From Haloterrigena turkmenica DSM 5511 (lineage in GTDB: Archaea; Halobacteriota; Halobacteria; Halobacteriales; Natrialbaceae): a stretch of DNA of 64,000 bases. The stretch lies in the NCBI RefSeq assembly GCF_000025325.1, contig NC_013744.1, positions 62,001 to 126,000 on the forward strand, read 5' to 3'. The position numbers and the translations under genes were made by a program. Under the pieces are notes generated by a model. That model was not told where the DNA came from. It was given only the letters and a program-made list of their open reading frames with translations, and searched no databases. Below, piece by piece: positions 5,040 through 34,142 of the stretch; positions within the stretch are counted from its first letter, which is position 1; each line of letters starts with the position of its first letter.

Positions 5040-5108
5040 ATGACCACAGAGGGCGGCGGGGAGTGTGGTCACGAATATCCGATCGAACGGAGTGAGAATA
5101 CGAAATGA
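5040..5108 (+). CDS. Possible 22-residue leader peptide coupled to the dehydrogenase
   Basis: A short open frame starts with ATG at 5040, where a leaderless transcript would begin, and ends in TGA at 5106-5108. The stop overlaps the dehydrogenase start in an ATGA arrangement (ATG at 5105). The predicted peptide is Gly/Glu-rich and has one Cys. Overlap of this kind usually means translational coupling. No homologue is recognised. It may be a translated leader, or simply 5' untranslated sequence with a chance frame. Confidence 0.35.
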   Translation: MTTEGGGECGHEYPIERSENTK

Positions 5109-12807: not shown

Positions 12808-14721
12808 ATGGAACTGCACGAATCGGGAAGGATCGGCGACCTCGAGATACCCAACCGCGGCGTTTTCAGGCCGGTGCGAACGCGCTTCGTCGACGACGGC
12901 GCCCCGACGACGGAGCTCGCGGCCCACCTCGGCGCTCGAGCGGCCGGCGGCGCCGGGCTCGTCGCCGGCCCCGCGCAGATGCTCGTCCACCCGTCGGCGA
13001 GCGGGCCGTCCTACATCGACGCCTACGACGAGGACGCGATCGAGGGGCTCGCGGCGGTCGCTGACGCCGTCCACGAGGCCGGGTCCGCGATCGTCGGTCA
13101 GCTTACTCACACCGGCGGCGAGGAGGGCGGAGATTGGGAGATGCAGGCGCAGCTGGCACCGTCGGCGTCCCCGTCGGACGCGGCCTACGAGATGCCTAAG
13201 GCGATGGACCGCGACGAAATCCGGGCCGTTCAGGATGGATTCGCGGCCGCGGCGAGAAACCTCGAGGAGGCGGGATTCGACGGCGTCGAGCTGAACGCGG
13301 GTGCGTTCTCGGTGTTGCGCCAGTTCCTCTCGCCCCGGTACAACGTCCGCGCCGACGAGTACGGCGGCGACTGGGAGAGCCGCGTCCGGTTCGTCAACGA
13401 GGCGATCGCGCGAGTGAGCGACGCGACGAGCGGTCCCGTCGGGCTTCACCTCTCCCTTGCGGAACTGGAGTACGGCGGGTACGAATTCGAGGACGTCCCC
13501 GAGTTCCTGCCCCTGCTCGAGCGGCTCGATTACCTCTCCTGTACGGTCGGGACGCGAGCGACGTACGACCGAACCCACGCAGGGCTGTCCGTTCAGGCCC
13601 CGGACCTGCTCGAGCCGATCCGAACTGCCGCGGACCTCGTTGACGTCCCAGTCATTGGTCGCCAGCCGCGTACGGGAGCCGCAGACGCGGCGTCGCTGTT
13701 CGACGCCGGAGCCGATTTCGTCTCGTTCACCCGGCAGCTGCTCGCCGATGAGCGAACCGTGCAGAAGCTCATCGACGGCGAGCGACACGACCGGTGCATC
13801 GAGTGTAATCAGAAGTGCCTCGAGGGAGTCTACGGGCACGCCCACGGCGGGCACGTTCAGTGCGTCGTGGACCCACGAACAGGACGGGAGACTGATCTGC
13901 CGCCGCTCGACGAGGTCGAACCGGCGGCGCTGAACCAACGCGTGCTGGTCGTCGGTGGCGGCCCCGCGGGGATGCGTTTCGCGGCGATTGCCGCCCGACG
14001 GGGCCACGACGTGACGCTTCGGGAGGCCGACGCAGAGCTGGGCGGTCAACTCCAAACGGCCGCTCAAGGCCCGCTCAATCTGCTGGAACGGGCCGAGGAG
14101 GACCTCGTGGCAGCGGTTCGGGAGGCCGGCGTGACCGTCGAGCGCGAGTCGCGGGTGACCGCCGACGCGCTCGAACCGGAGTGGGACGCCGTCGTCGTCG
14201 CCACCGGCGGGACTCGTCCCGGCCTCGACGAGTACGATTTCGACAGCGAGGTGGTCGACGCGTTCGACGTTCTCGAGGGTGCGAGCGTCGGCGACGACGT
14301 CCTCCTGTTCGACGACAACCGGTGGGTGATCGCGTTCCAGACTGGGCTGAAACTGCTCGAAGACGCGGCGGAGCTCGAGATCGTCGCGACCGATCACTAC
14401 CCCGGGTTTACGACCGAACAGCCGAACCTCCCCGGGTTCGTCTCTGCGTTGCAGGCTCAGGGAGCGACGTTCACCGGCAACCACACCCTCGAGGCGGTCG
14501 GTACCGACGGGACGGCGACTCTGCGGAACACGCTGACGGGCGATCGAACGACCAGAACGCCCGACACCGTCGTCGTCGCTGGTCGCCGACGGGCCGAGGA
14601 AGGGCTCTACCTCGAGTTGAAGGAGCGCCGGGACTCGGTCTACCGCATCGGCGACGCCGTTTCGCCGCGGAAGCTCGATCGCGCGTACTACGACGGCGAA
14701 CGGCTCGCACGGCGGCTGTAA
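12808..14721 (+). CDS. OYE/FadH-family flavin oxidoreductase, mycofactocin type (copy 1)
   Basis: A 637-residue enzyme built like 2,4-dienoyl-CoA reductase. It has an FMN-binding old-yellow-enzyme barrel (about 1-320), an iron-sulfur site with Cys330, 333, 337 and 352, and a C-terminal FAD/NAD(P) domain whose first fold is GGGPAG. This architecture is known in mycofactocin gene neighbourhoods as an FadH/OYE family. It could accept electrons from the reduced cofactor or reduce an enone. I use ATG 12808 because the barrel begins right after it; the frame is open 52 codons further up without domain content. A 646-residue relative sits at 23.6 kb. Confidence 0.85.
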   Translation: MELHESGRIGDLEIPNRGVFRPVRTRFVDDGAPTTELAAHLGARAAGGAGLVAGPAQMLVHPSASGPSYIDAYDEDAIEGLAAVADAVHEAGSAIVGQLTHTGGEEGGDWEMQAQLAPSASPSDAAYEMPKAMDRDEIRAVQDGFAAAARNLEEAGFDGVELNAGAFSVLRQFLSPRYNVRADEYGGDWESRVRFVNEAIARVSDATSGPVGLHLSLAELEYGGYEFEDVPEFLPLLERLDYLSCTVGTRATYDRTHAGLSVQAPDLLEPIRTAADLVDVPVIGRQPRTGAADAASLFDAGADFVSFTRQLLADERTVQKLIDGERHDRCIECNQKCLEGVYGHAHGGHVQCVVDPRTGRETDLPPLDEVEPAALNQRVLVVGGGPAGMRFAAIAARRGHDVTLREADAELGGQLQTAAQGPLNLLERAEEDLVAAVREAGVTVERESRVTADALEPEWDAVVVATGGTRPGLDEYDFDSEVVDAFDVLEGASVGDDVLLFDDNRWVIAFQTGLKLLEDAAELEIVATDHYPGFTTEQPNLPGFVSALQAQGATFTGNHTLEAVGTDGTATLRNTLTGDRTTRTPDTVVVAGRRRAEEGLYLELKERRDSVYRIGDAVSPRKLDRAYYDGERLARRL

Positions 14722-15738: not shown

Positions 15739-16557
15739 TTATTTCGCGGTCATTCCTGCGTCGACCGGTAGGACGGCTCCCGTCACGCACCGGGCGGCGT
15801 CGCTCGAGAGCCACAGGAACGCCTCGCTGACGTCTCGAGGGTCGACAAATTGCTCGTCGAGGACGTTCATCGACCCGCTGGCGTCGGAGACGCGCGACAG
15901 CGCCGCCTCGCCGATCGACTCGAGGATGCCGTCGATCAGCGGCGTGGCGACGCCCGTGGGCGCGACGGCATTGACCGTAACGTCGTACTCCGCGAGTTCG
16001 AGTGCCAGCGACTTCGTCAGTCCGACGAGACCGTGTTTCGCGGCGGCGTAGTGGCCGGACCCCCGCGTGCCGACGAGGGCCGCGGTCGACGCCGTCGAGA
16101 CGATCCGGCCACCGTCGCCGCGGTCGGCGAAGTGGGTGCCGACGTGTTTGGCACAGAGCCACGCGCCCTTCAGGTCGGTCGCGAGGGTCTTCTCCCAGTG
16201 CTCGGCCTCCAGTTCGACGAGGTCGGCCACGTGCCAGATCCCCGCGTTGTTCGCGAGGATGTCGATCTTGCCGTACTCGGTGAGGGCCTCGTCGACGGCC
16301 GCCTCGACGTCGCGCTCGTCGCGGACATCCATCCGAACCGGGAGGGCGCGCTGACCGGTCGCCTCGACGCGGCTGACAGTCTCCGCGAGATCAGCCTCGG
16401 TCGCGAGCGGGTACTGGGCCGCGCCCGATTGCCCGGCCAGATCCGCGACGACGACGTCCGCGCCGTGCTCGGCGTACGCGACCGCGTGCGAGCGGCCCTG
16501 TCCGCGAGCGGCCCCGGTGACGAACGCCACCTCGCCGTCGAAGTCGTAGGTCGGCAC
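15739..16557 (-). CDS. Mycofactocin-type SDR oxidoreductase (copy 2)
   Basis: A 272-residue SDR with TGAARGQGRSHA near residue 14, NNAG, and the YAAAK active-site pair. It starts with GTG at 16557, giving the same length and N-terminal pattern (xPTYDFDG) as its relatives; a longer frame upstream is non-homologous. It is the most divergent of the five GQGRSHA copies, with an Arg-Cys in the late AARCVTG segment where the others have Arg-Tyr. It is expected to be a nicotinoprotein alcohol dehydrogenase using mycofactocin as the electron acceptor. Confidence 0.88.
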   Translation of the reverse strand: MPTYDFDGEVAFVTGAARGQGRSHAVAYAEHGADVVVADLAGQSGAAQYPLATEADLAETVSRVEATGQRALPVRMDVRDERDVEAAVDEALTEYGKIDILANNAGIWHVADLVELEAEHWEKTLATDLKGAWLCAKHVGTHFADRGDGGRIVSTASTAALVGTRGSGHYAAAKHGLVGLTKSLALELAEYDVTVNAVAPTGVATPLIDGILESIGEAALSRVSDASGSMNVLDEQFVDPRDVSEAFLWLSSDAARCVTGAVLPVDAGMTAK

Positions 16558-17322: not shown

Positions 17323-17431
17323 GTTCGGGACGGACTCGAGGACGCGAACGACGCACGGCTACGGCGTCCGCTGCGTCTGCGGATGGCATCGACGCGCCGT
17401 GACTTCAGTCCCCCGTCCTGACTCGGCGTAA

Positions 17432-17438
17432 CAAAAAA
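17432..17438 (-). terminator. T-run terminator of the triple SDR operon
   Basis: A run of seven A on the plus strand, which is T7 on the coding strand, lies about 14 nt after the last SDR stop. Oligo-T tracts act as archaeal terminators. Confidence 0.5.
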
Positions 17439-17451
17439 AGCGTGCGGGCCG

Positions 17452-18276
17452 CTATTTCGACGTCATTCCCGCGTCGACGGGGAGCGCGATGCCCGTCACG
17501 TAGCGAGCGGCGTCGCTCGAGAGCCACATGTACGCTTCCGAGATGTCCCGCGATTCGATCGCCGGATCCTCGTCCTCGAACACGTTGAACTGGCCGGCCA
17601 GCTCTCCAATTTCCTCGAGCACTTCCTCGCCGTAGGCCTCGGTCATGCCGGTGATCATCGGCGTGCCGACGACGGTCGGACAGACGGCGTTGACGTTGAC
17701 GTCGTACTCCGCAAGTTCGAGCACCAGCGTCTTCGTCAGTCCGATCACGCCGTGTTTGGCCGCGGAATAGTGTCCGGCGCCGGGATTGCCGACGAGACCG
17801 GCCGTCGAGGACGTCGAGACGATCTTCCCGCCGTCGCCGCGATCGACGAAGTGTTTGCCGACGTGTTTCGCGCAGAGCCAGACGCCCTTGAGGTTGGTGT
17901 CGATCATCTCGTCCCACAGCAGCTCGTCCATCTCGACCATGTCCGATATCGTCACGATCCCCGCGTTGTTCGCGAGAACGTCGATGTGACCGAAGTGATC
18001 GACCGCCTCCTCCACGGCCGACTGGACGTCGTCCTCGTCGCGGACGTCTACCCCAAGTGCCAGCGCCTCTTGGCCCTCATCTTCGACGAGACCGGCCGTC
18101 TCGTCGAGTTCGTCCTCCGTGCCGAGGTCGTAGGGGACCGAATCCATTCCGCCGGCGATATCGGTGACGACGACGTCGGCGCCGTGTTTCGCGTAATACT
18201 GTGCGTGCGATCGTCCCTGTCCGTGCGCGGCGCCGGTGACGAACGCCACCGTGTCGCTGAAGTCGTATTCTGGCAT
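17452..18276 (-). CDS. Mycofactocin-type SDR oxidoreductase (copy 3)
   Basis: A 274-residue SDR carrying TGAAHGQGRSHA, NNAG and YSAAKHG, so it belongs to the same nicotinoprotein-like group as its neighbours. It is the last gene of a three-gene head-to-tail array on the minus strand: its ATG at 18276 lies 2 nt after the stop of copy 4, so they are co-translated or at least co-transcribed. The three copies are clearly paralogous over their full length and most variable in the segment before the late ESRDISEAYMWLSSD block, where substrate specificity usually resides. Confidence 0.9.
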   Translation of the reverse strand: MPEYDFSDTVAFVTGAAHGQGRSHAQYYAKHGADVVVTDIAGGMDSVPYDLGTEDELDETAGLVEDEGQEALALGVDVRDEDDVQSAVEEAVDHFGHIDVLANNAGIVTISDMVEMDELLWDEMIDTNLKGVWLCAKHVGKHFVDRGDGGKIVSTSSTAGLVGNPGAGHYSAAKHGVIGLTKTLVLELAEYDVNVNAVCPTVVGTPMITGMTEAYGEEVLEEIGELAGQFNVFEDEDPAIESRDISEAYMWLSSDAARYVTGIALPVDAGMTSK

Positions 18277-18278: not shown

Positions 18279-19097
18279 TTACTTTGCGAGCATTCCCGCG
18301 TCGACCGGCAGCGCGATGCCGGTGACGTAGCGGGCCGCGTCGCTCGAGAGCCACATATAGGCCTCGCTGATGTCCCGTGACTCGATCATTCCCTCCTCGA
18401 AGAGGTTCCACGGGCCAGTGACACTGATCACGTCGTCGAGGACGTCTTCGCCGTAGGCCTCGAGCACGCCGCTGATCATCGGCGTGTCGACGCCGGTCGG
18501 ACAGACGGCGTTGACGTTGACGTCGTACTCCGCGAGTTCGAGCGCTAACGTCTTCGTCAGCCCGAGGACGCCGTGCTTAGCGGCGATGTAGTGGCCGGAT
18601 CCGGGACCGGCTACCTTCCCGTAGATCGACGATGTCGAGACGATTTTGCCGCCGTCGCCGCGGTCGACGAAGTGTTTTCCGACGTGCTTCGAGCACAACC
18701 AGACGCCTTTGAGGTTGGTATCGATCATCTCGTCCCACATCGTCTCGTCCATCTCGACCAGATCGCCGAAGGTTCCGATCCCCGCGTTGTTCGCGAGGAC
18801 GTCGATCTTCCCGAACTCGTCGAGGGCCTCGTCGACCGCCGCTTCGACTTCGTCTTCGTCGCGAACGTCCATTTCGACCGCGAGCGCGTCCTGGCCTTCG
18901 TCCTCGACGAGACTCGCCGTCTCCTCGAGTTCGTCCTCCGTGCCGAGCTCGTACGGCACCGAGTCCATCCCGTCGTCGATGTCGGTAACGACCACGTCCG
19001 CACCGTGTTTGGCGTAGTGTTGGGCGTGCGATCGACCCTGCCCGTGTGCAGCGCCGGTGACGAATGCGACCTGATCGTCGAAATCGTACTGAACCAT
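18279..19097 (-). CDS. Mycofactocin-type SDR oxidoreductase (copy 4)
   Basis: A 272-residue SDR, middle gene of the array, with TGAAHGQGRSHA and the YIAAKHG active-site pair. The start at ATG 19097 gives an N-terminus (VQYDFDDQ) matching its relatives; 28 nt separate it from the gene before. It shares the block MIESRDISEAYMW with copy 1. It is expected to oxidise an alcohol with tightly bound NAD and pass electrons to mycofactocin. Substrate unknown. Confidence 0.9.
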   Translation of the reverse strand: MVQYDFDDQVAFVTGAAHGQGRSHAQHYAKHGADVVVTDIDDGMDSVPYELGTEDELEETASLVEDEGQDALAVEMDVRDEDEVEAAVDEALDEFGKIDVLANNAGIGTFGDLVEMDETMWDEMIDTNLKGVWLCSKHVGKHFVDRGDGGKIVSTSSIYGKVAGPGSGHYIAAKHGVLGLTKTLALELAEYDVNVNAVCPTGVDTPMISGVLEAYGEDVLDDVISVTGPWNLFEEGMIESRDISEAYMWLSSDAARYVTGIALPVDAGMLAK

Positions 19098-19125: not shown

Positions 19126-19947
19126 TTATTTCGCCGTGTACCCGGCATCTACGGGGAGCGCAACGCCGGTGACGTACCGGGCCGCATCGCTGGACAGCCA
19201 CAGGTACGCCTCGCTTATTTCTTGGGACTCGATCATGCCGCCGTCGCCGAAGAGGTTGAACGGACCGGTCATCTCCCCCATCTCCTCGAGCATCTCTTCG
19301 CCGTAAGCCTCCGTGTACCCCGAGATCATCCGCGTGTCGACGCCGGTCGGACAGACGGCGTTGACGTTAACGTCGTACTCCGCGAGTTCCAGCGCCAGCG
19401 TCTTGGTCAGCCCGATGACGCCGTGTTTGGTCGCCGCGTAGTGACCCGAGGACAGCGCGCCCGTCAGCCCGGCCGTCGAGGACGTCGAGACGATCTTGCC
19501 GCCGTCGCCGCGGTCGACGAAGTGTTTCCCGACGTGTTTCGAGCACAACCAGACGCCCTTGAGATTGGTGTCGATCATGTCGTCCCACATCGCCTCGTCC
19601 ATCTCCACTAGGTCCGAGGCGTTGAAAATCCCCGCGTTGTTCGCGAGGACGTCGATCTTCCCGAACTCGTCGAGCGCCTCGTCGACGGCCGACTCGACCT
19701 CGTCTTCCTCGCGGACGTCCATCTCGAGGACGAGTGCGTTCCCGCCCTCGTCTTCGATCCGACTCGCCGTGTCCTCGAGTTCGTCCCGCGTTCCGAGCTC
19801 GTACGGGTTCGTATCGATGTTTTCGCAGATGTCCGTGATGACGACATCTGCGCCGTGTTTGGCGTAGTTTACTGCGTGCGATTCTCCCTGACCGCGGGCG
19901 GCGCCGGTGACGAACGCCACCGTGTCATCGAAGTCGTACGTTGGCAT
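19126..19947 (-). CDS. Mycofactocin-type SDR oxidoreductase (copy 5)
   Basis: A 273-residue SDR and first gene of the array, with TGAARGQGESHA (Arg to Glu change within the usual GQGRSHA), NNAG and YAATKHG. The ATG at 19947 matches the family start; the longer frame upstream is not homologous. Upstream sequence is AT-rich, with a GTTTATATCAC element on this strand near 20,094-20,104 that probably drives all three genes. The Glu in place of Arg sits near the adenine ribose side of the cofactor and could affect how NAD is held. Confidence 0.88.
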   Translation of the reverse strand: MPTYDFDDTVAFVTGAARGQGESHAVNYAKHGADVVITDICENIDTNPYELGTRDELEDTASRIEDEGGNALVLEMDVREEDEVESAVDEALDEFGKIDVLANNAGIFNASDLVEMDEAMWDDMIDTNLKGVWLCSKHVGKHFVDRGDGGKIVSTSSTAGLTGALSSGHYAATKHGVIGLTKTLALELAEYDVNVNAVCPTGVDTRMISGYTEAYGEEMLEEMGEMTGPFNLFGDGGMIESQEISEAYLWLSSDAARYVTGVALPVDAGYTAK

Positions 19948-23445: not shown

Positions 23446-23565
23446 GATAGTATCTGTCGCACTTCGGCGCATAAATCGCTGTCGCCGAATTGCGGGCGGG
23501 GAGAGCGAATCCGGCGTTAGAACTTTATCCGTGCTGCTATTCAGTGGCGGTAGTTAACGGCCACC

Positions 23566-25506
23566 ATGAGTGAACTGCTCTTCACACCGAAGTCGATCGG
23601 CCCCGTAACCGTCCCGAATCGGACGGTCTTTCTCGCCCACGAGACGGGGTTCGCCGAGGACGGGCTCCCGACGGAGCGCGACGCGGCGTACTATGAGGCC
23701 CGGGCTCGAGGGGGCGTCGGGCTCATCGTCGGCCCCTCGAGCATGCTCGTCCACCCAAGCTCCTCGAACCCGATGTACGCGACAGGGTACGATCCCGAGG
23801 TTATCCCGCGCCTCGAGATGATCGCCGACGCCTGTCACGAACACGGAACGAAGGTGTTCGCTCAGCTCCAGCACACGGGCGGCGAGGACTCGGGCGAGTA
23901 CGCGATGCGCGAGACGTGGGCGCCCTCGGCGGTGCCCACCCAGTACGGCTACGAGATGCCGAAACGGATGGAGATCGAGGACATCGAGGAGATCAAACTC
24001 GGGTTCGCGAAGACCGCCGAGCACGTGAAACGCGGCGGGCTCGACGGCGTCGAACTGAAGGCCGGGCACGACGGCATCCTCCGGCAGTTCATCTCGCCGA
24101 AGTACAACCGCCGCGAGGACAAGTACGGCGGCTCGGTCGAGAATCGGGTCCGCCTCGTCAACGAGGTCGTCGAGGCCATCCGCGACCGCGTCGGCGACGA
24201 GTTCCCGATCGGCGTCCGGCTTACGCTCGACGAGATGGAAGACGGCGGCTACGACTACGAGTACGCGGTCGAGGTCATGCGTCATCTCAACCCGGACATC
24301 GACTTCGTCGACTCCGACATCGCCACCATCTCGAAGCTCTACATCACCGACGCCCCGATGCACGCGCCCCTGGGATACACTCAGGAGTACTACGGCGGAG
24401 CCCGGGAGATACTCGACGTCCCGATCATCGCCTCGGGCCGGATCAACGACCTGACGAAGGGAAACGACATCCTCGAGGAGGGGCGGGCCGATTTCGTCGG
24501 GATGTGTCGCCAGCTCATCTGCGACGCCGACACCGTCCGCAAGGTTCGTCGGGGTGCCGACGACGAAGTGACCCACTGCATCGCCTGCAACCAGAACTGC
24601 CTCGGGGGGATCCACACGAATGGCCACGTCGGCTGCATCCAGACGCCGCGCTCCGGACGGGAGACGAACATTCCGCACATCGAGGACGTCGACGAAGCGC
24701 CGTCGGAGCGGCGGATCCTCGTCGTCGGCGGCGGGCCGGCCGGCCTCTCGTTCGCGGTGACCGCCGCGGACCTCGGCCATCGGGTGACCCTCCGGGAGAA
24801 AGAGGACACCCTCGGCGGGCAGTCGAACATCGCCACGGAGATCGACTCCCGCCGCGAGTTCGGCGACGCCGTCCGCAACCTGCTGAACCAGCTCGAGAAC
24901 CGCGACGTCACCGTCGAGCGGGGCGTCGAAGTCTCCCCCAGCGACGTCGACGACGAGCGGTGGGACGATGTCGTCGTCGCGACCGGCGCTCGCGAGCAGT
25001 CGCCGCAGTTCGAGGGGCGAAACGTCCACCGATCGTGGGACGTGCTTCGGGGCGAGACCGTCGGCGAGTCGGTCATCGTCTTCGACACCAACAAGCACGC
25101 CGCCGGCGTCGGCCTCGCCGAACAGTTGGCGGTCGACGGCCACGACGTGACGCTGGTGACGACCTCCTACCACCCCGGCGATCGCCTCGAGGGGACGAAC
25201 GTGCCACCGTTCCTCGAGACGCTGTACGAGCACGACGCGGAGCTGATCGAGCACACGACCATCATCGGCTTCCAGGACGGAGAGGCCCAGCTGTTGAACG
25301 TCTATTCGGAGGAGATGACGACGATGACGGCCGACTCGCTGGTCGTCGCGGCGCGCCGGGAGGCCCGGACCGGGCTCGCAGACGCGTTGCGCGAACGGGT
25401 CGACGATCCCGACTCGGTTCACCGGATCGGCGACTGCGTCGCGCCGCGGCTCATCGACAAGGCGATCTTCGACGGCGAGATGCTCGCACGGAGGGTGGGC
25501 GAATGA
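23566..25506 (+). CDS. OYE/FadH-family flavin oxidoreductase, mycofactocin type (copy 2)
   Basis: A 646-residue relative of copy 1: old-yellow-enzyme barrel (about 1-330), iron-sulfur Cys338, 341, 345 and 357, and FAD/NAD(P) domains with the fold GGGPAG. Its stop overlaps the next gene's ATG by four bases (ATGA), making it the first gene of a tightly packed operon with the Fix-type electron transfer flavoprotein genes. A TATA-like ACTTTATCC lies about 40 nt before the start. In context it is a strong candidate for taking electrons from reduced mycofactocin or for coupling it to the flavoprotein pool. Architecture firm; partner inferred. Confidence 0.87.
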   Translation: MSELLFTPKSIGPVTVPNRTVFLAHETGFAEDGLPTERDAAYYEARARGGVGLIVGPSSMLVHPSSSNPMYATGYDPEVIPRLEMIADACHEHGTKVFAQLQHTGGEDSGEYAMRETWAPSAVPTQYGYEMPKRMEIEDIEEIKLGFAKTAEHVKRGGLDGVELKAGHDGILRQFISPKYNRREDKYGGSVENRVRLVNEVVEAIRDRVGDEFPIGVRLTLDEMEDGGYDYEYAVEVMRHLNPDIDFVDSDIATISKLYITDAPMHAPLGYTQEYYGGAREILDVPIIASGRINDLTKGNDILEEGRADFVGMCRQLICDADTVRKVRRGADDEVTHCIACNQNCLGGIHTNGHVGCIQTPRSGRETNIPHIEDVDEAPSERRILVVGGGPAGLSFAVTAADLGHRVTLREKEDTLGGQSNIATEIDSRREFGDAVRNLLNQLENRDVTVERGVEVSPSDVDDERWDDVVVATGAREQSPQFEGRNVHRSWDVLRGETVGESVIVFDTNKHAAGVGLAEQLAVDGHDVTLVTTSYHPGDRLEGTNVPPFLETLYEHDAELIEHTTIIGFQDGEAQLLNVYSEEMTTMTADSLVVAARREARTGLADALRERVDDPDSVHRIGDCVAPRLIDKAIFDGEMLARRVGE

Positions 25507-26597
25507 CGGGGCCGATCTGGGCAGTCCCGGGATCGAGCGACGACCCGACGGTCGCCGAGGCGAACCGGCTTGCCGATCGCCTCGAGGCGGAGGGGGCGAC
25601 CGAGGAGCGCCCGCGCGTGGTCGGCATCGCCTTCGACGGACTCGTCGAGACGGACGCGCCGGCGATCGGTCGGGCCGACGAAGTGGTTCGCCTCGTCCGC
25701 GAGGGGGGCGCGTTCCGGTCGGGATCGGCGGGCGTCGATGCGCGAGCGGACGCGCTCCGGTCGCTCTCCCGTGCCGCGGGGAATGGAGACGGTGACGCGT
25801 CTGGCGACGGAGAGCAAAGCGACGTCTCTACCGGCGGGCGAGAACGACCGACGGCCGTCCTGTTCCCGAGCACGCCCGACGGCGACGAACTCGCGGCCGT
25901 GACGGCGCGCAGGCTCCGCGGCGGCTGCGTCACCGACTGCCTGCTCCGCGTTCGGGAGGGCGAGCTCCGCGCCGGACGGACCGCCTACGAGGGGCGGGCC
26001 TACGCGGAAATATCGTTCGAGCGGGGGCCGCCGGTCGTCTCGCTGAACGCGGACGTCCTCGAGTCGCCGCCCGACTCCGGCCCCGACGAGGCGCCGCCGG
26101 AACGGACCCACCGGGTCGACCTCGAGGGTGACGAGGCGATCAGGCGCGTCGACACGCTCGAGGTGCCCGAACGGGATCTCACTCGCGCGCCGCGGATCGT
26201 CGCGGGCGGCTACGGTCTCGGCGGTCCCGAGGGGTTCGACGCGATCGAGAAGTTGGCGGACTCGCTCGGCGCGTCCGTCGGCGCCTCCCGGCCGCCGGCC
26301 GACGAGGGGTGGGTCCCCTACGACCGCCAGATCGGCGTGACGGGGAAAGAGATCGACGTCGATCTCTACGTCCCGTGTGCGATCTCTGGGGACTCCTACC
26401 ACATGCGCTCGGTCAACGCCGACCACCTCGTACCGATCAACGTCGATCCGGACGCCCCCATCTTCAACGTCGCCGACCTCGGCATCGTCGGCGACGTCTT
26501 CGAGTACGGACCGGTCATCGCCGAAGCGATCAGGGCGGCGAGCGACGACGCGGGAACCGACACCGACGTCGCCGGTCCCGAGGAGGTGACGCGATGA
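25503..26597 (+). CDS. Electron transfer flavoprotein alpha-type subunit (FixB-like)
   Basis: A 364-residue protein. The C-terminal third is the conserved ETF-alpha FAD-binding domain: RIVAGGYGLGG, then VGASRPPADEGWVPYDRQIGVTG, and the late VPINVDPDAPIFNVADLGIVGD. The N-terminal half is a diverged ETF fold with a Gly/Asp-rich insertion near residues 98-118. With the beta subunit it carries electrons between dehydrogenases and a quinone reductase. It overlaps the upstream OYE gene and the downstream FixC gene by ATGA, so stoichiometric co-expression is likely. Confidence 0.88.
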   Translation: MTGPIWAVPGSSDDPTVAEANRLADRLEAEGATEERPRVVGIAFDGLVETDAPAIGRADEVVRLVREGGAFRSGSAGVDARADALRSLSRAAGNGDGDASGDGEQSDVSTGGRERPTAVLFPSTPDGDELAAVTARRLRGGCVTDCLLRVREGELRAGRTAYEGRAYAEISFERGPPVVSLNADVLESPPDSGPDEAPPERTHRVDLEGDEAIRRVDTLEVPERDLTRAPRIVAGGYGLGGPEGFDAIEKLADSLGASVGASRPPADEGWVPYDRQIGVTGKEIDVDLYVPCAISGDSYHMRSVNADHLVPINVDPDAPIFNVADLGIVGDVFEYGPVIAEAIRAASDDAGTDTDVAGPEEVTR

Positions 26598-27910
26598 GTG
26601 CCGATATCGCGTTCGACGTCGTCGTCGTCGGCTCCGGGCGCGCCGGGACGGCCGCGGCGTACAAGCTCGCCAAGGAAGGCGTCGACGTCGCGCTCGTCGA
26701 GCGAGCGAAGCAACCGGGAATGAAGAACGTGACCGGCGGCGTCCTCTACGGGGAGATCATGGACGACCTCGTCCCAGAGTATCCCGAGGAGGCACCGCTC
26801 GAGCGCCATGTCGTCGAGCACAACATCAAGCTGCTCCACGGGGACGCCGAGGTCGGGATCAGCTATCGGGATCAGGAGCTCCGCGAGGAGCCGAACTACA
26901 CCCTTATGCTCGGCAAGTTCGATCGCTGGTTCGTCGAGAAAGCCGAGGAGCGAGGGGCCGTCTTCGTCCCCGAGACGACGGTCATCGACGTCACGCAGAC
27001 GGACGACGGGGCCGTCGTCCACACGGACCGCGAGGGCGGCGACATCGCGTGTCAGGCGGTGATTGGCGCCGACGGCGTCAACACCACCGTCGGTCGGAAG
27101 ACGGGCATCCAGCGCACGATGCACAACCGGGACATGGCCCTGTCGGTTAAGAAGGTGATCCAGCTCGACCGCGAGACGATCAACGAGCGGTTCAGCTTGG
27201 ACGGCGACGAGGGCGCCGCCTACGTTTACACCGGCTTCCCGGAAGGCGCGCCGACCATCGGCTACTTCATCTACACGTTCGAGGACCGGATCTCCGTCGG
27301 CGCGGTCGGCAGCCTCGAGGTGCTGCGGCACCTCGGCGATGAAGGGTACGGCAAGACCGGGACGCCGTTGTACTCACTGCTCGAGCAGTTCATGGAACTG
27401 GACGCAGTCCGTCCCTACGTGGCGGGCGACGTCCTCGACGAGTACCAGGGCATTCTCGTCCCCGAATTCTCGTACGATACGCTCCCTGACCGATACGATC
27501 GGCGGGTCGCCCTCGTCGGGGACGCCGCCGGCCTCGTCCTCAACAAAGGGTACACCTTCCGCGGGCTCGACTACGGCATTACCAGCGGGCTCGCGGCGGC
27601 GGCGTCGGCGCTGGAGTGTCGCGGCGACGGCGACTGGACCGCCTTCGGCGAGCGCTACGATCGCCGCCTCGAGAACTCCTACGTCCTCAGGGACATGAAA
27701 CAGCACCGCCACCTCCCGGAGTTCCTCGAGAACGAGCGCATGTACGGCGCGTACCCCGGCATGGCCGCCGAAACGCTCCGGGGGATGTACTCCTCGAGCA
27801 CCGACGCCGAGGGACTGACGTGGCGACAGGCCTGGAACGCGTTCCGCCGGAGCGACGCCACCGTTCGCGGGCTCCTATACGACGGCTACCGGGCGTTCCG
27901 GTCGCTGTGA
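26594..27910 (+). CDS. ETF-quinone oxidoreductase-like flavoprotein (FixC-like)
   Basis: A 438-residue FAD protein with the dinucleotide fold GSGRAG near the N-terminus, the ATG-type GDAAGLVLNKG motif near two thirds of its length, and the FixC/ETF-QO pattern MKNVTGGVLYG. These enzymes take electrons from ETF and reduce menaquinone in the membrane. It overlaps FixB by ATGA. Together with the ferredoxin-like FixX gene that follows it could feed electrons from alcohol oxidation into the haloarchaeal respiratory chain. Confidence 0.9.
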   Translation: MSADIAFDVVVVGSGRAGTAAAYKLAKEGVDVALVERAKQPGMKNVTGGVLYGEIMDDLVPEYPEEAPLERHVVEHNIKLLHGDAEVGISYRDQELREEPNYTLMLGKFDRWFVEKAEERGAVFVPETTVIDVTQTDDGAVVHTDREGGDIACQAVIGADGVNTTVGRKTGIQRTMHNRDMALSVKKVIQLDRETINERFSLDGDEGAAYVYTGFPEGAPTIGYFIYTFEDRISVGAVGSLEVLRHLGDEGYGKTGTPLYSLLEQFMELDAVRPYVAGDVLDEYQGILVPEFSYDTLPDRYDRRVALVGDAAGLVLNKGYTFRGLDYGITSGLAAAASALECRGDGDWTAFGERYDRRLENSYVLRDMKQHRHLPEFLENERMYGAYPGMAAETLRGMYSSSTDAEGLTWRQAWNAFRRSDATVRGLLYDGYRAFRSL

Positions 27911-28042
27911 GGCCGACTCGAGAGCGGGACGGCGACTTCGGCGACCGCAAAACGGATTACGCTGGGCGTGGAGCGTCGAGACGCGAGTGGATTGGTTTCA
28001 CATGACACAACTAATTGCCGAACGGACGTCGATCGATCGCTC

Positions 28043-28333
28043 ATGAGTGTCCAAGACAGCCTCGAGACGGTGAACTGGGACGTCAGCGACGAGGCCCACA
28101 TCACCGTCGACAACGACGAGTGCGTAACGTGCGACGACAAGCCCTGCCTCCACCTCTGTCCCGCGCAGTGTTTCGATTACCAAGAGGAACGGAAGGGCGG
28201 CATTTACTTCGCCTACGAGCCCTGCATCGAGTGCGGCGCGTGCATGGTCTTCTGTGCCAACGACTCCGAAAAAGGGGCGGTCTCGTGGTCGAAGGCCGAG
28301 GGCGGAAAGGGCGTCGAGTTCGACTTCGGGTGA
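28043..28333 (+). CDS. Ferredoxin-like protein FixX
   Basis: A 96-residue iron-sulfur protein with Cys27, 30, 35, 39 and then Cys61, 64, 67, 71 (CIECGACMVFC). The spacing resembles FixX, the small subunit working with FixC. ATG 28043 is chosen because the longer frame upstream lacks homology. It sits 132 nt after the FixC gene and 73 nt before the FixA gene, on the same strand. It should relay electrons between the FixC flavin and quinone. Confidence 0.88.
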   Translation: MSVQDSLETVNWDVSDEAHITVDNDECVTCDDKPCLHLCPAQCFDYQEERKGGIYFAYEPCIECGACMVFCANDSEKGAVSWSKAEGGKGVEFDFG

Positions 28334-28406
28334 TTCCCGTGTCGCTCGAGAACGGCGTCACGGTCGCCGAACCGACGATACCGGTCGGCGGGAGGGAGAC
28401 GAGACG

Positions 28407-29264
28407 ATGAAGGCAGTCGTCGGAGTGCGACCGTCGCCACACCGGCTGATCGACGAGGGCGGGACGGCGCGGCCGTACCGCTGGCACGCGAGCATCGTCG
28501 ACCGCGTCGCGCTCGAGGCCGCCCTCCGGACTGCAGAAACCGTCGTGGCGGTCGGGATCGGCGGGAAGCCGGCGAAGGAGTGCGTCAGGACCGCGCTCAC
28601 GACGGGCGCGGATCGAGGGATCCACGTCTCCTTCGACCCGATCGAGGAGACCGTCGCCGAGAAGTACGCCGCAGTGCTCGCCCGCGTGGCCGCCCGCGAG
28701 GACCCCGACGTGCTGTACGTCGGCGAATTTTCGCCGCTGATGGACGTCGAAGTGGCCGGCCTCGCGGCGGAGACTCTCGACTGGCCGAGCACGACCCGAA
28801 TCACCGCCATCGGCGCCGACGAGGTGCTGGCCGACGATGAGTTCGGGGCCAACGAGGTCGCCGTCCAGCGCAAACTCGACGTCGGTCGACAGGAGGTCCT
28901 CGGCGTCGAATTGCCCGCCGTGCTGGGCATCGATAGCGGGTTCGCGAACCCCCGCCGAGCCTCCCTTGAGACGGCCGTCTCCGGCCGTCGGGCCGAGATA
29001 GAGACGATCCCGCTCGAGGACGTCGTGCCCGGCGAGAGCCGGTTCTCGATGAGCGTCGGGGCGGCGACGATCGAACGCGTCGTCCCCAACGAGCGGTGGG
29101 GCCGCGGGGAGCCGCCCCGGGGCGGAACGGTCGAGGAGCGCATCTACCGGATGCTCGGGCGCGGCACCGCCGAGGGACAGACGACCGGCGAAGTGGTCGA
29201 CGCCCCGCCGGAAGAGGCGGCTGAACGCGTCGTCGAATACCTTCGAGAGAACAACTTACTTTGA
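28407..29264 (+). CDS. Electron transfer flavoprotein beta-type subunit (FixA-like)
   Basis: A 285-residue ETF-beta fold protein. The AMP/flavin-binding region is diverged, but the AVGIGGKPAKECVRTAL and GADEVLADDEFGANEVAVQRKLDVG blocks and the LPAVLGIDSGFANPRRAS segment, equivalent to the family's signature loop, are clear. A ribosome binding site GGAGGGAG lies at 28391-28398, 8 nt before the ATG. In most genomes fixA precedes fixB; here the order is B-C-X-A, with the alpha subunit first. It completes the heterodimer and ends the operon. Confidence 0.87.
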   Translation: MKAVVGVRPSPHRLIDEGGTARPYRWHASIVDRVALEAALRTAETVVAVGIGGKPAKECVRTALTTGADRGIHVSFDPIEETVAEKYAAVLARVAAREDPDVLYVGEFSPLMDVEVAGLAAETLDWPSTTRITAIGADEVLADDEFGANEVAVQRKLDVGRQEVLGVELPAVLGIDSGFANPRRASLETAVSGRRAEIETIPLEDVVPGESRFSMSVGAATIERVVPNERWGRGEPPRGGTVEERIYRMLGRGTAEGQTTGEVVDAPPEEAAERVVEYLRENNLL

Positions 29265-29336: not shown

Positions 29337-31715
29337 TCAGTTCGGTTCGCCGTCGTCGGACCGGCGGATCGCCCGGACGAGGTACCGGTCATCCCATTCC
29401 TGTACTCGCTCGAGGGCGAAGCCCCGCTCGCGAAGGAATCCCTCGACGTCGTCCGCGGTCGCATCGAACGCGCCGATCGCAGCCGGGTGTATCTCGCAGT
29501 AGACGAGTCGGCAGTCCGACGCGGAGAGCGTCTCGTCGAGTCCGCGGAGCACCTCGATTTCGGCCCCTTCGACGTCGATCTTCACGACCGTCGGCGACGG
29601 GACATCGGTGCGCTCGAGCAGGGAGTCCCCCGCCGCGACGTCGACCGGAACGCGATCAGCGTCGGTCGACTGCGCGCTCGAATCCGCGCTGTCCGCGGCG
29701 AGGACGCTCGTTCCCGCTCCGACTCGATCCGCCGGAACGTCGAGTCGCCCGCTCCCGTCCGTCGCCCCGAGCGCCGCCCGCGTGACGCTCGCGTCGACGC
29801 CGTTCAGTCCGAGGTTCTCCGCGAGGCGATCAGCGTTCCCGGGATGGGGTTCGACGGCGACGACGCGTCCGTCCGAGAGGATCCGCCCGGCGAAACACGC
29901 GTAGAGGCCGACGTTAGCGCCGACGTCGAGCACGGCGTCGTCGGGACCGAGCCGCTTGAGGAGGTCCGCGAGTACCGGCCGCTCCCCCCGAAGCGTCTCG
30001 TCCTCGAGCCACCAGGATTCAGTCGACGTGTCGAGGCGGAATCGAGCCGCGACGCCGTCGATACTGACCGTTCGAACGCTCGCCTCCCCGTTCGTCCGAG
30101 CGCGAATCGGTGCGGCGACCGCGTCTGCCGCCGTCGTCAACACTCCGGCGCCGGGACCGGCAAGCCGAAACCGCCTCGCGGGCGAGAGGTGGGCGAGCGT
30201 CCGGTGTGCGACGGCGCCGCGGTAGACCCCGCGCTGGTAGCCGAAGTGATCCGCGGCGTAGAAGCGCGCGTACGCCGTCGGGGAGAGCGGCGGCCGTTCG
30301 ACGGCGTACTCAACCGCTGCGGGGAAGGCGACCGCGAGAGCGACGCCCGCGGCGATCGTCACCGCGAGGGTCGACCGACCGACCAGTAGCGCCGCGAAGG
30401 CGACCGTTCCCAGCGGAAGGGCGTAATACCGCGTCACCTCCGTCGCGACCGCGTAGGTCCCCGAGAGGAGTCCGCGAGCGCGACTCCGGAGCACGGTTCC
30501 GGGGTCGACGATGCGCCGGAGACGGCGGTAGCGTCGGAGCGGGCCGACCGCGACGCCGACCGCCAGCAGCGCGCCGATCGCCCTGAGCGCGAGCGGAGCG
30601 GTCGGGAGCGTCACCAACCCGACCGCGAGCGCGAGGAGGACGATCCCGACGACGAGCGGGCCGATCCCGATCGGGACGCTGTCGCCGCGGCGGTACGTCC
30701 GGGCCAGCAACGCCTCCGAGGCGCCGTAGTCGCTCCGCCGCGCGGCGAACGAGCGCAGGTCCGCGCGGTAGTCGTGTTCGACGACGCCGTCCGGCGAGTA
30801 GACGACGTCGTAGCCGCGGTCGACGGCGCGCCAGCAGACGTCGACGTCCTCGGCGACGCTTCGCTCGGGAAACGGAACCCGCTCGAGCACTTCCCGGCGG
30901 GCGAGGAGGTTCGCCGTCGGAAGGTACGGCGTCGCGCCGTCGGGATCGACGCGGGCCGCGTACGCGCCCATGTCGAGAGATGAGTTCTGCCCCTCGTAGG
31001 CGTCGACGGGGCCGTCGCCGCGGGGGCGAACGCGCCCGCCGACGACGTCGTGGGCCGCGAGCGCGGGGACGAGGGCGGACAGCCAGTCGGGCCGCGGACG
31101 GCAGTCCGCGTCGGTGAACGCGATGATATCGTGGCTCGCTGCGTCGACCCCACGATTGCGCGACGCGCCGATACCGAGGGGGTTCGCGGCCGATCCGACG
31201 GGGACGACCCGGAGCCGCCCCCGGTCGGCGAGTTCGTGTGCACGGGCCTCCTCGACGGTCCCGTCCGTTGAGCCGTCGTCGACGACGACGACCTCGTACT
31301 CGGGATATTCGAGGGCTTCGAGTGCGTCGAGGCAGCCGACCAGGTGGTCGCGAGCGTCCCTGACCGTGACGACGACCGAGACCGGCGGCGCGTACGACTC
31401 GTCTCGGGACGGCGCCCACTCGAGGAAGCCGCGGCGGTGCAACCGCTCGAACAGCCGGGCGACCGCGTCGGGGTCGGTGTCAATTTCGGCGGCGACGGCG
31501 GCCGGCGACCGAAACGCGTCGATGTCGAGGGCGGCGACGGCGGTAGCGCCGGTATCGTTGAGTCGCGTCACCGTGAGGGGACGCCTCGAGAACAGCACCG
31601 ACCCCCGACAAGAGACACCGTCCCACAGCCGATATCGGCCGGTCGCGTCGTTCGAATCGTCGAGTGACGAGTCTATCGTGACCTGCATGAAATTCACATC
31701 CGTATCCGGGAGCAT
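29337..31715 (-). CDS. mftF: Mycofactocin glycosyltransferase fused to FkbM methyltransferase
   Basis: A 792-residue fusion. Residues 1-100 look like a PqqD-type peptide-binding domain. Residues 111-340 are a family 2 glycosyltransferase (DDGSTDG at 146-152, TDAD at 201-204, late ED/RxxRRG region). Two hydrophobic segments lie near 352-392 and 430-470. Residues 547-792 are an FkbM-type SAM methyltransferase with LDVGANVGLYA (596-606) and VKIDVEGAE (711-719). MftF adds the glucose chain of mycofactocin; a fused methyltransferase would cap or modify that chain. ATG 31715 gives the full PqqD-like part; ATG 31688 is the alternative. It follows mftC in the mftABC operon. Confidence 0.88.
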   Translation of the reverse strand: MLPDTDVNFMQVTIDSSLDDSNDATGRYRLWDGVSCRGSVLFSRRPLTVTRLNDTGATAVAALDIDAFRSPAAVAAEIDTDPDAVARLFERLHRRGFLEWAPSRDESYAPPVSVVVTVRDARDHLVGCLDALEALEYPEYEVVVVDDGSTDGTVEEARAHELADRGRLRVVPVGSAANPLGIGASRNRGVDAASHDIIAFTDADCRPRPDWLSALVPALAAHDVVGGRVRPRGDGPVDAYEGQNSSLDMGAYAARVDPDGATPYLPTANLLARREVLERVPFPERSVAEDVDVCWRAVDRGYDVVYSPDGVVEHDYRADLRSFAARRSDYGASEALLARTYRRGDSVPIGIGPLVVGIVLLALAVGLVTLPTAPLALRAIGALLAVGVAVGPLRRYRRLRRIVDPGTVLRSRARGLLSGTYAVATEVTRYYALPLGTVAFAALLVGRSTLAVTIAAGVALAVAFPAAVEYAVERPPLSPTAYARFYAADHFGYQRGVYRGAVAHRTLAHLSPARRFRLAGPGAGVLTTAADAVAAPIRARTNGEASVRTVSIDGVAARFRLDTSTESWWLEDETLRGERPVLADLLKRLGPDDAVLDVGANVGLYACFAGRILSDGRVVAVEPHPGNADRLAENLGLNGVDASVTRAALGATDGSGRLDVPADRVGAGTSVLAADSADSSAQSTDADRVPVDVAAGDSLLERTDVPSPTVVKIDVEGAEIEVLRGLDETLSASDCRLVYCEIHPAAIGAFDATADDVEGFLRERGFALERVQEWDDRYLVRAIRRSDDGEPN

Positions 31716-31804
31716 CGTGGTGTCTTGACTGTAAACCGTCCTGTCCCCGCCGGGAGTCGCGACCCGCGCGGTGAATCGGCGTCGTCGGACATGCGCGGGT
31801 GCGA

Positions 31805-32764
31805 TCAGTCGCCGGAGAGGATGGCTCGCAGTTGCGGATCCTCGCCGTTCGGATCGTCGCTGCCCATCGCGACCGCGGGACACCCCTCGTTGTCGTCGAT
31901 CCGATTGCGGAGCGAGGCGATGTCGTCCCACGCCGCCTGGAATCCGTCCTCGGTGACGTTGCCGGACGCGAGGCCGTCCCACTGCGTGAACGCGCAGGGA
32001 TAGACGTCGCCGACGGGATCGACGAGACACGTCATCGAGCCGGCGCCGCACTCCTTCAGCGTATTGTTCCGGACCTCACCGAGGGCGTTGAGGTAGAAGA
32101 AGGAGTCGCCCGTGCGGACGTCGGGGCGCTCCTCGAGCCAGCCGTGGAGGTACTCGATCTGTTCCTGCTCGAGGCGGAATCGGTCCCACGTGTCCTCGCC
32201 GCGACCGCTCGGACGGAACCGATTGAGCCGCAGCCCCGCCCCGTGGTCCTCCGCGAGGTCGTAGACGTCGGGCAGGTCGTAGACGTTCTGACGTGTCACG
32301 ACCGTGTTCACGGTCGTTCCGATGTCCCGGGACTCGAGGCGCTCGAGCGTCTCGACGATCTGGTCGTAGACGCCCTCTCCGCGGATCGCGTCGTTCGCCT
32401 CCCGGAGGCCGTCCATGCTCACCTGCAGGAAGAGCGGATCCATCGCTTCGATCCGATCGAGAGTCTCCTCGTCCAGTTGAGTGCCGTTCGTGCTCACGCA
32501 CGTCGAAATATCCCGGTCCGTCAGCTCCTCGAGCAGCTCGAGCATATCGGGCCGAATAAACGGCTCTCCGCCGCCGATGTTGACCTGAAAGACGTCCATC
32601 TCGTCGAGTTCGTCGATGAACGCCATCGCTTCCTCGGTCGAGAGTTCGTCCGGCTGCTGGTGGCCCGGACCGCTACCGGAGAGGCAGTGGTCGCAGTGGA
32701 GATTGCACCCGAGCGTCACTTCCCACGTGATCGTTACGGGAGCCGAGAGTGGTCCACTCGGCAT
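31805..32764 (-). CDS. mftC: Mycofactocin radical SAM maturase
   Basis: A 319-residue radical SAM enzyme. The [4Fe-4S]-SAM site is Cys20, 24, 27 (CNLHCDHC) and the GGGEP motif is at 64-68. MftC decarboxylates and cross-links the C-terminal Val-Tyr of MftA. The C-terminal SPASM part is short: Cys239, 246, 257 and 295 only, without the CxxCxxxxxC stretch of actinobacterial MftC. ATG 32764 is 2 nt after the mftB stop, so mftB and mftC are one operon; the longer frame upstream is not homologous and runs over mftB. Order mftA-mftB-mftC makes the assignment firm despite the short C-terminus. Confidence 0.9.
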   Translation of the reverse strand: MPSGPLSAPVTITWEVTLGCNLHCDHCLSGSGPGHQQPDELSTEEAMAFIDELDEMDVFQVNIGGGEPFIRPDMLELLEELTDRDISTCVSTNGTQLDEETLDRIEAMDPLFLQVSMDGLREANDAIRGEGVYDQIVETLERLESRDIGTTVNTVVTRQNVYDLPDVYDLAEDHGAGLRLNRFRPSGRGEDTWDRFRLEQEQIEYLHGWLEERPDVRTGDSFFYLNALGEVRNNTLKECGAGSMTCLVDPVGDVYPCAFTQWDGLASGNVTEDGFQAAWDDIASLRNRIDDNEGCPAVAMGSDDPNGEDPQLRAILSGD

Positions 32765-32766
32765 GA

Positions 32767-33006
32767 TCACTGCGTCTCCAGGAAGTTTCGGTCGACGAGT
32801 CGCTCGACGAGAGAGGGGGAGTACTCCCGTTCGATCTCGTCGCGCCGTCGCCCGTCGCCGACGAACTCGAGGACGTCGACGACCGTCTCGGAGACCTCGT
32901 AGAGCGACGCGTCCTCGTAGCCGTAGTTCTCGTGATCGTACACCAGTCCGGACTCCGCCTCGCGGCGATACTTGACGTGGTCGGGGATGCGGATCGTGGC
33001 GCTCAT
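32767..33006 (-). CDS. mftB: Mycofactocin precursor peptide chaperone
   Basis: A 79-residue PqqD-like RiPP recognition protein lying between mftA (stop 3 nt upstream) and mftC. The sequence has the DxSLYEVSETVVDVLEFVGDGR winged-helix pattern with a C-terminal LVERLVDRNFLE helix. MftB binds MftA and presents it to MftC. Small and diverged, but its place in the operon and its fold pattern make the call secure. Confidence 0.87.
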   Translation of the reverse strand: MSATIRIPDHVKYRREAESGLVYDHENYGYEDASLYEVSETVVDVLEFVGDGRRRDEIEREYSPSLVERLVDRNFLETQ

Positions 33007-33008
33007 GA

Positions 33009-33176
33009 TCAGTAGACGCCGCAGATCCCGTCGATCCGGAGCTCTTCCGAGACGAGATCCTCCTCGATCTCGGGAGTCTCCTCGGCGTTCCCGTCGTTCT
33101 CGGCGTCGTGTTCGTCCGAGTCATTCCGGGACCGATCCGACGGAGTCCGAGACTCGTCTGACGCAGTCTGTGACAT
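33009..33176 (-). CDS. mftA: Mycofactocin precursor peptide
   Basis: A 55-residue peptide whose last eight residues are IDGICGVY, the hallmark of MftA. The final Val-Tyr pair is the part converted into the redox-active cofactor. The first 35 residues are Asp/Glu/Ser-rich low complexity, longer than in actinobacteria and typical of a halophilic protein. The next part (EDLVSEELR) fits the recognition helix bound by MftB. ATG 33176 follows a TATA box by about 25 nt, so the mRNA should be leaderless. The gene is short enough to be missed by gene callers. Confidence 0.92.
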   Translation of the reverse strand: MSQTASDESRTPSDRSRNDSDEHDAENDGNAEETPEIEEDLVSEELRIDGICGVY

Positions 33177-33200
33177 ACACTCGCACAGATGACGGCCCCG

Positions 33201-33210
33201 TATATATAAT
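33201..33210 (-). promoter_or_regulatory. TATA box of the mftABC-F operon
   Basis: ATTATATATA on the minus strand, centred about 29 nt upstream of the mftA ATG. This places the transcription start at or just before the start codon. The mftE start is 150 nt away on the other strand. Confidence 0.65.
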
Positions 33211-33359
33211 GTGGGGCGGATGCGCGTCCCGTGCAACGATTAGCGGGTTCGCGACGTGAGTGAGTCGGGTATCGGCGGATTCCGTGCACGTCGACGGCGG
33301 ATTGACTGCCCGCGAAGCGTGCGAAAACCTACTTGGCGACGGCGGCGAAACGAGTGCGT

Positions 33360-34142
33360 ATGACTCATCTGGAAGTCGAGGCGCTAACCGAGTGTACGTG
33401 GCGCGACGTCGAGACGGCTATCGACGATGGGCGCACGACGGTCATCGTCCCGATCGGAGCGACGGAACAACACGGTCCCCACCTCCCGTTGCGGACCGAC
33501 ACGACGATCGGCGACGCCATCGCGGAGCGACTCGCGAACCGGCTGGGCGACGCGCTCGTCGGCCCGGCGATCCCGTTCGGCCCCTCCCGCGAGCACGAGG
33601 CGTTCCCGGGGACCGTCTCGATCTCGCCCCGAACGCTCCGGACGCTGCTCGGCGACTACGTCGCCTCCCTCGAGCGAAGCGGCTTCGAACGGGTCGTCCT
33701 CCTGCCGAGCCACGGCGGAAGCTTCGCGAGCGTCGCCGCGGCTCACCCGGAACTCGCCTGCTCGCACGACGTCGACGTCGTCGCCATCGACGACCTCGGG
33801 AGGTACCTCGAGCTGCTCAACGAGGGGCTCGATCGAGCCGGAATCGACCACCGAGAGCCGGTCGTCCACGCCGGAGCCGTCGAGACGGCCGTGATGCTCG
33901 CCGTCGATCCCGACGCCGTTCGCGCTGACCGCGCACCCGACGGATACGACGGTCCCGTGTCGGCGGCGAAACTGTACCGGGACGGCATCGACGCCTACTC
34001 GCCGAACGGTGTTCTAGGCGACGCGCGTCCCGCGACCGCCGACGTCGGAGAAACGATCCTCGAGCACGTCGTCGATGCGTACGCCGCGGAGGTGCGCGAC
34101 GAGTTCGAGGCGCTTCGCCGAGACTCGAGGGAGGTCGAATGA
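33360..34142 (+). CDS. mftE: Creatininase-family peptidase MftE
   Basis: A 260-residue creatininase-fold metallohydrolase, divergent from mftA. The metal ligands are in GATEQHGPHLPLRTDT, with a second site in LPSHGGS and late in HAGAVETAV. MftE cuts the modified MftA to release the C-terminal Val-Tyr-derived product. I take ATG 33360; an ATG 27 nt upstream only adds residues without homology. In most mft clusters this gene sits near mftC; here it is oriented away from mftA with a shared 183-nt intergenic region, so both sides could be co-regulated. Confidence 0.9.
   Translation: MTHLEVEALTECTWRDVETAIDDGRTTVIVPIGATEQHGPHLPLRTDTTIGDAIAERLANRLGDALVGPAIPFGPSREHEAFPGTVSISPRTLRTLLGDYVASLERSGFERVVLLPSHGGSFASVAAAHPELACSHDVDVVAIDDLGRYLELLNEGLDRAGIDHREPVVHAGAVETAVMLAVDPDAVRADRAPDGYDGPVSAAKLYRDGIDAYSPNGVLGDARPATADVGETILEHVVDAYAAEVRDEFEALRRDSREVE

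Follow-up and report, generated by a model that had tools for sequence, protein, structure and literature searches.

The window analysed here is a 64,000-nucleotide stretch of Haloterrigena turkmenica DSM 5511 (contig NC_013744.1, positions 62,001 to 126,000), and its mycofactocin gene cluster is the subject of this analysis. The locus lies on the plasmid pHTUR01, a replicon of 698,495 bp in a genome of 7 replicons; the genome has been described as 5,440,782 bp in size, comprising one chromosome and six plasmids, the largest of 698.5 kb (PMC3035258). A profile search with NCBIfam models, in which the scores were judged against the curated cut-offs, identified the five core genes mftA, mftB, mftC, mftF, and mftE at positions 29337-34142, with mftA-mftB-mftC-mftF in this order on the minus strand and mftE divergent on the plus strand. 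The genes, their order, and their coordinates agreed with the original prediction, which had been made from the letters of the sequence and had suggested running the mycofactocin models on MftA, MftB, MftC, MftF, and MftE; when this was done, every protein scored above its cut-off, including the short MftA ending in IDGICGVY (Table 1). Assignment of the cluster to mycofactocin biosynthesis is supported by these curated models, by synteny, by the conserved core of MftA, and by the phylogenetic profile. The view that the set was almost complete held for the core genes but not for mftD and mftG, neither of which was found in the genome. Similarly, the boundaries were drawn correctly around the five genes but left outside a conserved partner block (23566-29264) with genes for an old yellow enzyme (OYE) and an electron transfer flavoprotein (ETF), as well as a second OYE gene (from 12829).

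The core IDGICGVY of MftA was identical in 15/15 haloarchaeal loci. A TATA-like element was read from the sequence upstream of the mftA ATG and was located at a similar distance in 14/14 haloarchaeal loci compared, which suggests a leaderless mftA transcript that begins close to this ATG, at 33176. Among 391 genomes drawn from the class Halobacteria, 13 genomes belonging to 7 of the 86 genera had an MftC; the genus of the window was represented by six genomes in this set, one of which had it. This patchy distribution was at least partly plasmid-borne (pHTUR01 and pCBA1230-01). That mycofactocin genes occur in archaea is already known, and the novelty implied by the original prediction was not borne out: the accessible part of Haft 2011 (PMC3023750) reports all mycofactocin components on the large H. 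turkmenica plasmid, at the same locus, and lists the core components together with the partner families of short-chain dehydrogenases/reductases (SDRs) and alcohol dehydrogenases (ADHs), with no mention in that part of the loss of a second auxiliary cluster (Aux II) from MftC, of a fusion of MftF to an FkbM domain, or of the absence of mftD and mftG. The Prokaryotic Genome Annotation Pipeline (PGAP) annotation of a Halolamina plasmid already names mftA, mftB2, and mftC, and MftB2 has its own NCBI model. The new part is, provisionally, the archaeal variation: MftC is conserved and has no Aux II site, and the cluster belongs to a type with OYE and ETF genes. Neither the loss of Aux II nor the MftF-FkbM fusion was found to be described in the literature searched, outside which most subscription papers lay. 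The original prediction was right on the genes, but these two features, the absence of mftD and mftG, and the OYE/ETF block had not been noticed in it.

MftC is the “M” of SPASM and helped to name this domain. The TIGR03962 match of the window MftC covered model positions 8-289 of 339, and positions 290-339 were unmatched. For a comparison of the cysteines, 14 haloarchaeal MftCs were aligned with nine bacterial ones, the latter from Actinomycetota and Thermomicrobium only, and a fifteenth haloarchaeal sequence was inspected separately. The columns of the two auxiliary clusters were assigned from the SPASM seven-cysteine motif, CX9-15GX4C-gap-CX2CX5CX3C-gap-C, which binds Aux I and Aux II (PMC6231123), and from a comparison with AhbD (PMC10452713). 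The radical S-adenosylmethionine (SAM) cysteines (20, 24, and 27) and the Aux I cysteines (239, 246, 257, and 295) were invariant in haloarchaeal and bacterial MftC alike, whereas the four Aux II cysteines (CX2CX5C and the last Cys) were found in 9/9 bacterial and 0/14 haloarchaeal MftCs; the fifteenth haloarchaeal sequence agreed. At the sequence level, haloarchaeal MftC does not have the seven cysteines of SPASM and has the three or four cysteines, for one auxiliary cluster, of Twitch. By definition its domain is thus a Twitch domain and not a SPASM domain, truncated and with predicted ligands for one cluster, and the Aux I cluster is probably intact. A structure model with five distant homologues in the input reached a pLDDT (predicted local distance difference test) of 72, with residues 290-319 below 50, while ten close relatives as input gave a mean pLDDT of 49. 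The best structural match of the first model was the Twitch enzyme SkfB (Z 24.5), followed by SuiB and PqqE, and no solved MftC structure was among the matches listed in this comparison. The model was too weak after residue 290 to serve as a test of Cys295 or of the geometry of the Aux I cluster.

The short MftC could also mean loss of function in a decaying or silent plasmid cluster, a view that agrees with the patchy distribution, the plasmid location, and the missing mftD and mftG. However, the same short form was present in 15/15 haloarchaeal loci, the MftC of the other loci sharing 74-86% identity with that of the window, and the last 34 codons were under strong purifying selection (pN/pS 0.10). 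The partner genes and promoter-like elements were also conserved, and decay is regarded as very improbable. A frameshift or assembly fault was ruled out as the origin of the short form, since 15 independent loci share the same end and the tail is under purifying selection. Between distant haloarchaeal genera MftC was 83-86% identical, notably more conserved than MftF (approximately 53-57%) and EtfA (50-60%). In Halorubrum, radical SAM proteins approximately 33% identical to MftC have the Aux II-type cysteines and lack those of Aux I, a mirror image of haloarchaeal MftC and a pattern also described for the AhbD of non-methanogenic archaea.

The best match to MftD (TIGR03966) in the H. turkmenica genome scored 147 bits against a cut-off of 471, and neither MftD nor MftG (TIGR04542) was above the cut-off in any of the 13 mft-positive haloarchaeal genomes. 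In eight of them no TIGR03966 match was found at E 1e-30. A distant mftD elsewhere in the genome was ruled out for all 13 by the profile search. Two reports indicate that MftD is not universal among accepted mycofactocin systems (PMC3023750, PMC11162802), and about 25% of the genomes with mftC are without MftG (PMC11778925). Since premycofactocin was abolished by deletion of mftD in M. smegmatis (PMC7491314), another enzyme must supply this step if mycofactocin is made in the haloarchaea. The block OYE_A-etfA-fixC-fixX-etfB adjoins the mft genes in every haloarchaeal locus whose sequence extends far enough, and OYE_B invariably makes up the pair of OYE genes that each mft-positive haloarchaeal genome carries. 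A search with the FadH/OYE protein adjacent to the cluster (E 1e-120) returned the same 13/391 genomes as MftC and no others, with two copies in each (Fisher p ~1.5e-24). In six clusters on Streptomyces plasmids, of which two were almost the same, OYE1-OYE2-etfA-fixC-fixX-etfB directly followed mftC and no mftD was nearby, whereas four other bacterial clusters contained mftD and no OYE/ETF genes (p 0.005 for the contrast). TIGR03997 is also present in the clusters of Saccharopolyspora, which have no mftD, and a methylated mycofactocin is produced by S. erythraea (PMC11162802); the OYE/ETF cluster type is therefore productive in bacteria.

OYE_A matched the OYE-fold amine dehydrogenases of solved structure, histamine and trimethylamine dehydrogenase. 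Because its relatives include such enzymes, and because an ETF is the acceptor of trimethylamine dehydrogenase, deamination of 3-amino-5-[(p-hydroxyphenyl)methyl]-4,4-dimethyl-2-pyrrolidinone (AHDP) by OYE with ETF as the acceptor is, by analogy, a reasonable proposal. Alternatively, the OYE, ETF, and FixCX proteins might be mere users of mycofactocin, as substrate reductases or electron sinks, in a standard pathway in which AHDP is deaminated by some other enzyme, such as a chromosomal FMN-dependent hydroxyacid oxidase. One full-length FMN_dh-family protein is indeed encoded on the H. turkmenica chromosome, and NCBI labels the OYE and ETF families as mycofactocin-associated without a known step. 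Such an oxidase would not be general, however, given the eight mft-positive genomes without a TIGR03966 match, and both OYEs were present in 13/13 mft-positive genomes and stood at the position of mftD in Streptomyces, so that a role as users only seems improbable. Among the OYE copies, OYE_B of Haloarculaceae archaeon H-GB1-1 has serine at two Fe-S cysteines (SIQSNQKC), unlike all other copies, and OYE2 on the plasmid of Streptomyces sp. SAT1 (locus 16251-18202) is split over two frames and unannotated, through a frameshift or a sequencing error. OYE_A is also adjoined by a ChlI/ChlD-like pair; ChlD/ChlI-like matches were found beyond OYE_A in several haloarchaeal mft loci, and a VWA/AAA pair was found likewise in the Halolamina plasmid.

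The MftF of the window is fused in one open frame to a C-terminal FkbM domain (TIGR01444 at residues 595-743, 107 bits with a cut-off of 37.7; PF05050), which contains the SAM-binding motif DVGANVG. The same fusion was found in five other loci (6/14 haloarchaeal loci in total), and the MftF of Halolamina, without FkbM, scored 267.9 bits with TIGR03965, below the cut-off of 280. The mycobacterial glycan is 2-O-methylated by MftM (PMC11778925). By analogy, the archaeal glycan is probably methylated by the fused FkbM domain, although MftM is a separate protein of a different Pfam family (PF08241).

SDRs of TIGR03971 scored above the cut-off five times in the window and occurred in 13/13 mft-positive genomes, as against 6/378 mft-negative genomes, each with a single copy. 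These six SDRs might be remnants, or might work with a different electron carrier. The zinc ADH of the window is likely to be a further user of mycofactocin. The same plasmid also encodes an F420-dependent oxidoreductase.

Table 1. Genes and features of the mycofactocin locus of pHTUR01, in window positions.
Feature	Position	Strand	Details
mftA, precursor peptide	33009..33176	-	55 aa; TIGR03969 41.4 bits (cut-off 25); Ser/Asp/Glu-rich leader, core ...RIDGICGVY
TATA-like element, 5' of mftA	33196..33215	-	read from sequence
mftB (MftB2), PqqD-like peptide chaperone	32767..33006	-	79 aa; NF043018 130.6 bits (cut-off 62)
mftC, radical SAM maturase	31805..32764	-	319 aa; TIGR03962 306.8 bits (cut-off 265)
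mftF, glycosyltransferase with C-terminal FkbM	29337..31715	-	792 aa, start codon inferred; TIGR03965 305.9 bits (cut-off 280), residues 37-512
mftE, creatininase-family peptidase	33360..34142	+	260 aa; TIGR03964 176.7 bits (cut-off 172); PF02633 229 bits
OYE_A, FadH/OYE Fe-S flavoenzyme, mycofactocin OYE_2 kind	23566..25506	+	TIGR03997 625 bits, below cut-off 793
etfA, ETF alpha	25503..26597	+	best match NF038209 mft_etfA 118.8 bits, below cut-off 240
fixC-like FAD oxidoreductase, ETF:quinone oxidoreductase type	26594..27910	+	PRK10015 285.8 bits, FixC 264.8 bits, both below cut-off; syntenic in haloarchaeal loci
fixX-like ferredoxin	28043..28333	+	96 aa; FixX model 31 bits; 70-91% identical across haloarchaeal loci
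etfB, ETF beta	28407..29264	+	best match TIGR04503 mft_etfB 93.8 bits, below cut-off 200
OYE_B, second FadH/OYE flavoenzyme	12829..14721	+	~42% identical to OYE_A
Mycofactocin-coupled SDR	10818..11615	+	TIGR03971 330 bits (cut-off 300)
Mycofactocin-coupled SDR	15742..16542	-	TIGR03971 319.7 bits
Mycofactocin-coupled SDR	17458..18258	-	TIGR03971 317.8 bits
Mycofactocin-coupled SDR	18282..19082	-	TIGR03971 326 bits
Mycofactocin-coupled SDR	19129..19932	-	TIGR03971 324.2 bits
Zn ADH, N,N-dimethyl-4-nitrosoaniline (NDMA)-dependent kind	5105..6262	+	TIGR03989 422.5 bits, just below cut-off 440
ChlI/ChlD-like AAA and VWA pair	20271-21368, 21448-23472	-	cobaltochelatase-like models, below cut-off
F420-dependent LLM-class oxidoreductase	41403-42434	-	TIGR03560 230.9 bits (cut-off 231.4)

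With a probability of roughly 0.6, the cluster would encode a functional system for mycofactocin, belonging to the mftD-less OYE/ETF type and having an MftC without Aux II; the mycofactocin product and the roles of OYE and ETF are what we infer from the genes. In the proposed pathway, MftB would carry MftA to the radical SAM enzyme MftC, which would modify the C-terminal Val-Tyr of MftA with Aux I as its only auxiliary cluster. MftE would free the core and MftF would glycosylate it, the fused FkbM domain probably methylating the glycan in H. turkmenica. The two FadH/OYE proteins together with EtfAB and FixCX would replace MftD in the oxidative deamination of AHDP and MftG in the reoxidation of mycofactocinol, their electrons would pass to the quinone pool, and the mycofactocin-coupled SDRs and the ADH would use the cofactor. 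The more demanding proposal, that haloarchaeal MftC performs both steps of core formation with one auxiliary cluster and that the two OYEs and EtfAB-FixCX replace both MftD and MftG, is a tentative one, plausible but held at less than even odds.

Several points weigh against this interpretation. None of the haloarchaeal OYE, EtfA, and EtfB proteins reaches the curated cut-off of its mycofactocin family; the two OYEs reached 625 and 428 bits with TIGR03997 (cut-off 793), yet this was their best family match, as were NF038209 and TIGR04503 for EtfA and EtfB, in the same gene context. The best PDB match of OYE_A was 2,4-dienoyl-CoA reductase and not an amine dehydrogenase. In the OYE tree, to be read with caution because of long branches and sequence composition, the pairs were grouped by host and the haloarchaeal and Streptomyces copies were not paired one to one. 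Additionally, bacterial MftC reportedly requires Aux II for product formation, as cited in PMC10452713, and archaeal MftC without Aux II might therefore not complete the reaction. Such an enzyme might stop early or make another bond, giving a cofactor that resembles mycofactocin but differs from it chemically, such as one with a decarboxylated, uncyclised Val-tyramine core. Haloarchaeal and bacterial MftC are set apart by approximately 40 diagnostic residues, and the differences, which include a two-residue insertion after the CX3CX2C motif, are in line with an altered product. One of these residues, Cys89 (in ISTCVSTNG; window 32497-32499, minus strand), is present in 14/14 haloarchaeal sequences and replaced by Lys in 9/9 bacterial rows, and it could be relevant to the altered enzyme. 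On the other hand, the locus has the standard MftA core, MftE, MftF, and SDR partners, and the Streptomyces clusters with the same OYE/ETF block have an MftC that retains Aux II. A different product is thus judged unlikely, and the functional mftD-less mycofactocin system is preferred.

If the more demanding proposal above is true, an otherwise adapted MftC would be able to dispense with Aux II in this chemistry, and archaeal mycofactocin would be made and reoxidised in direct connection with the quinone pool. What Aux II does in such enzymes has been called unclear in a review (PMC9012708), and a natural, conserved MftC without this site allows a direct test, since one enzyme is then available in two versions. 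Which protein reoxidises mycofactocinol without MftG has likewise been posed as an open question (PMC11778925). The strict pairing of mftC with two OYEs and ETF/FixCX, mirrored in Streptomyces plasmids, provides candidates both for the premycofactocin step without MftD and for the reoxidation of mycofactocinol without MftG.

Compared with the known systems, the mftABCDEF(G) clusters of mycobacteria, Tsukamurella, Streptomyces NBC_00080, and Thermomicrobium share the MftA core, MftB, MftC, MftE, MftF, and the SDR/ADH partners with the haloarchaea, but they have MftD and often MftG, their MftC has both auxiliary sites, and no OYE/ETF block is nearby. The OYE/ETF clusters of Streptomyces plasmids and Saccharopolyspora (PMC11162802) resemble the haloarchaeal loci in lacking mftD and in carrying two FadH/OYE proteins, EtfA, FixC-like and FixX-like proteins, and EtfB beside mftABC, mftF, and mftE. 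In Streptomyces, however, MftC keeps Aux II, MftF is not fused to FkbM, and the genes form one operon, whereas the haloarchaeal OYE/ETF block is a separate and usually convergent operon. SkfB and the other Twitch enzymes have a truncated SPASM domain with ligands for one cluster, as in haloarchaeal MftC, but SkfB forms thioether links, has a CX33CXC auxiliary site, and contains its own RRE domain. The AhbD of non-methanogenic archaea offers another natural loss of one of the two auxiliary sites, in the reverse direction: Aux I was lost from AhbD, which retains Aux II, whereas haloarchaeal MftC lost Aux II and kept the Aux I site.

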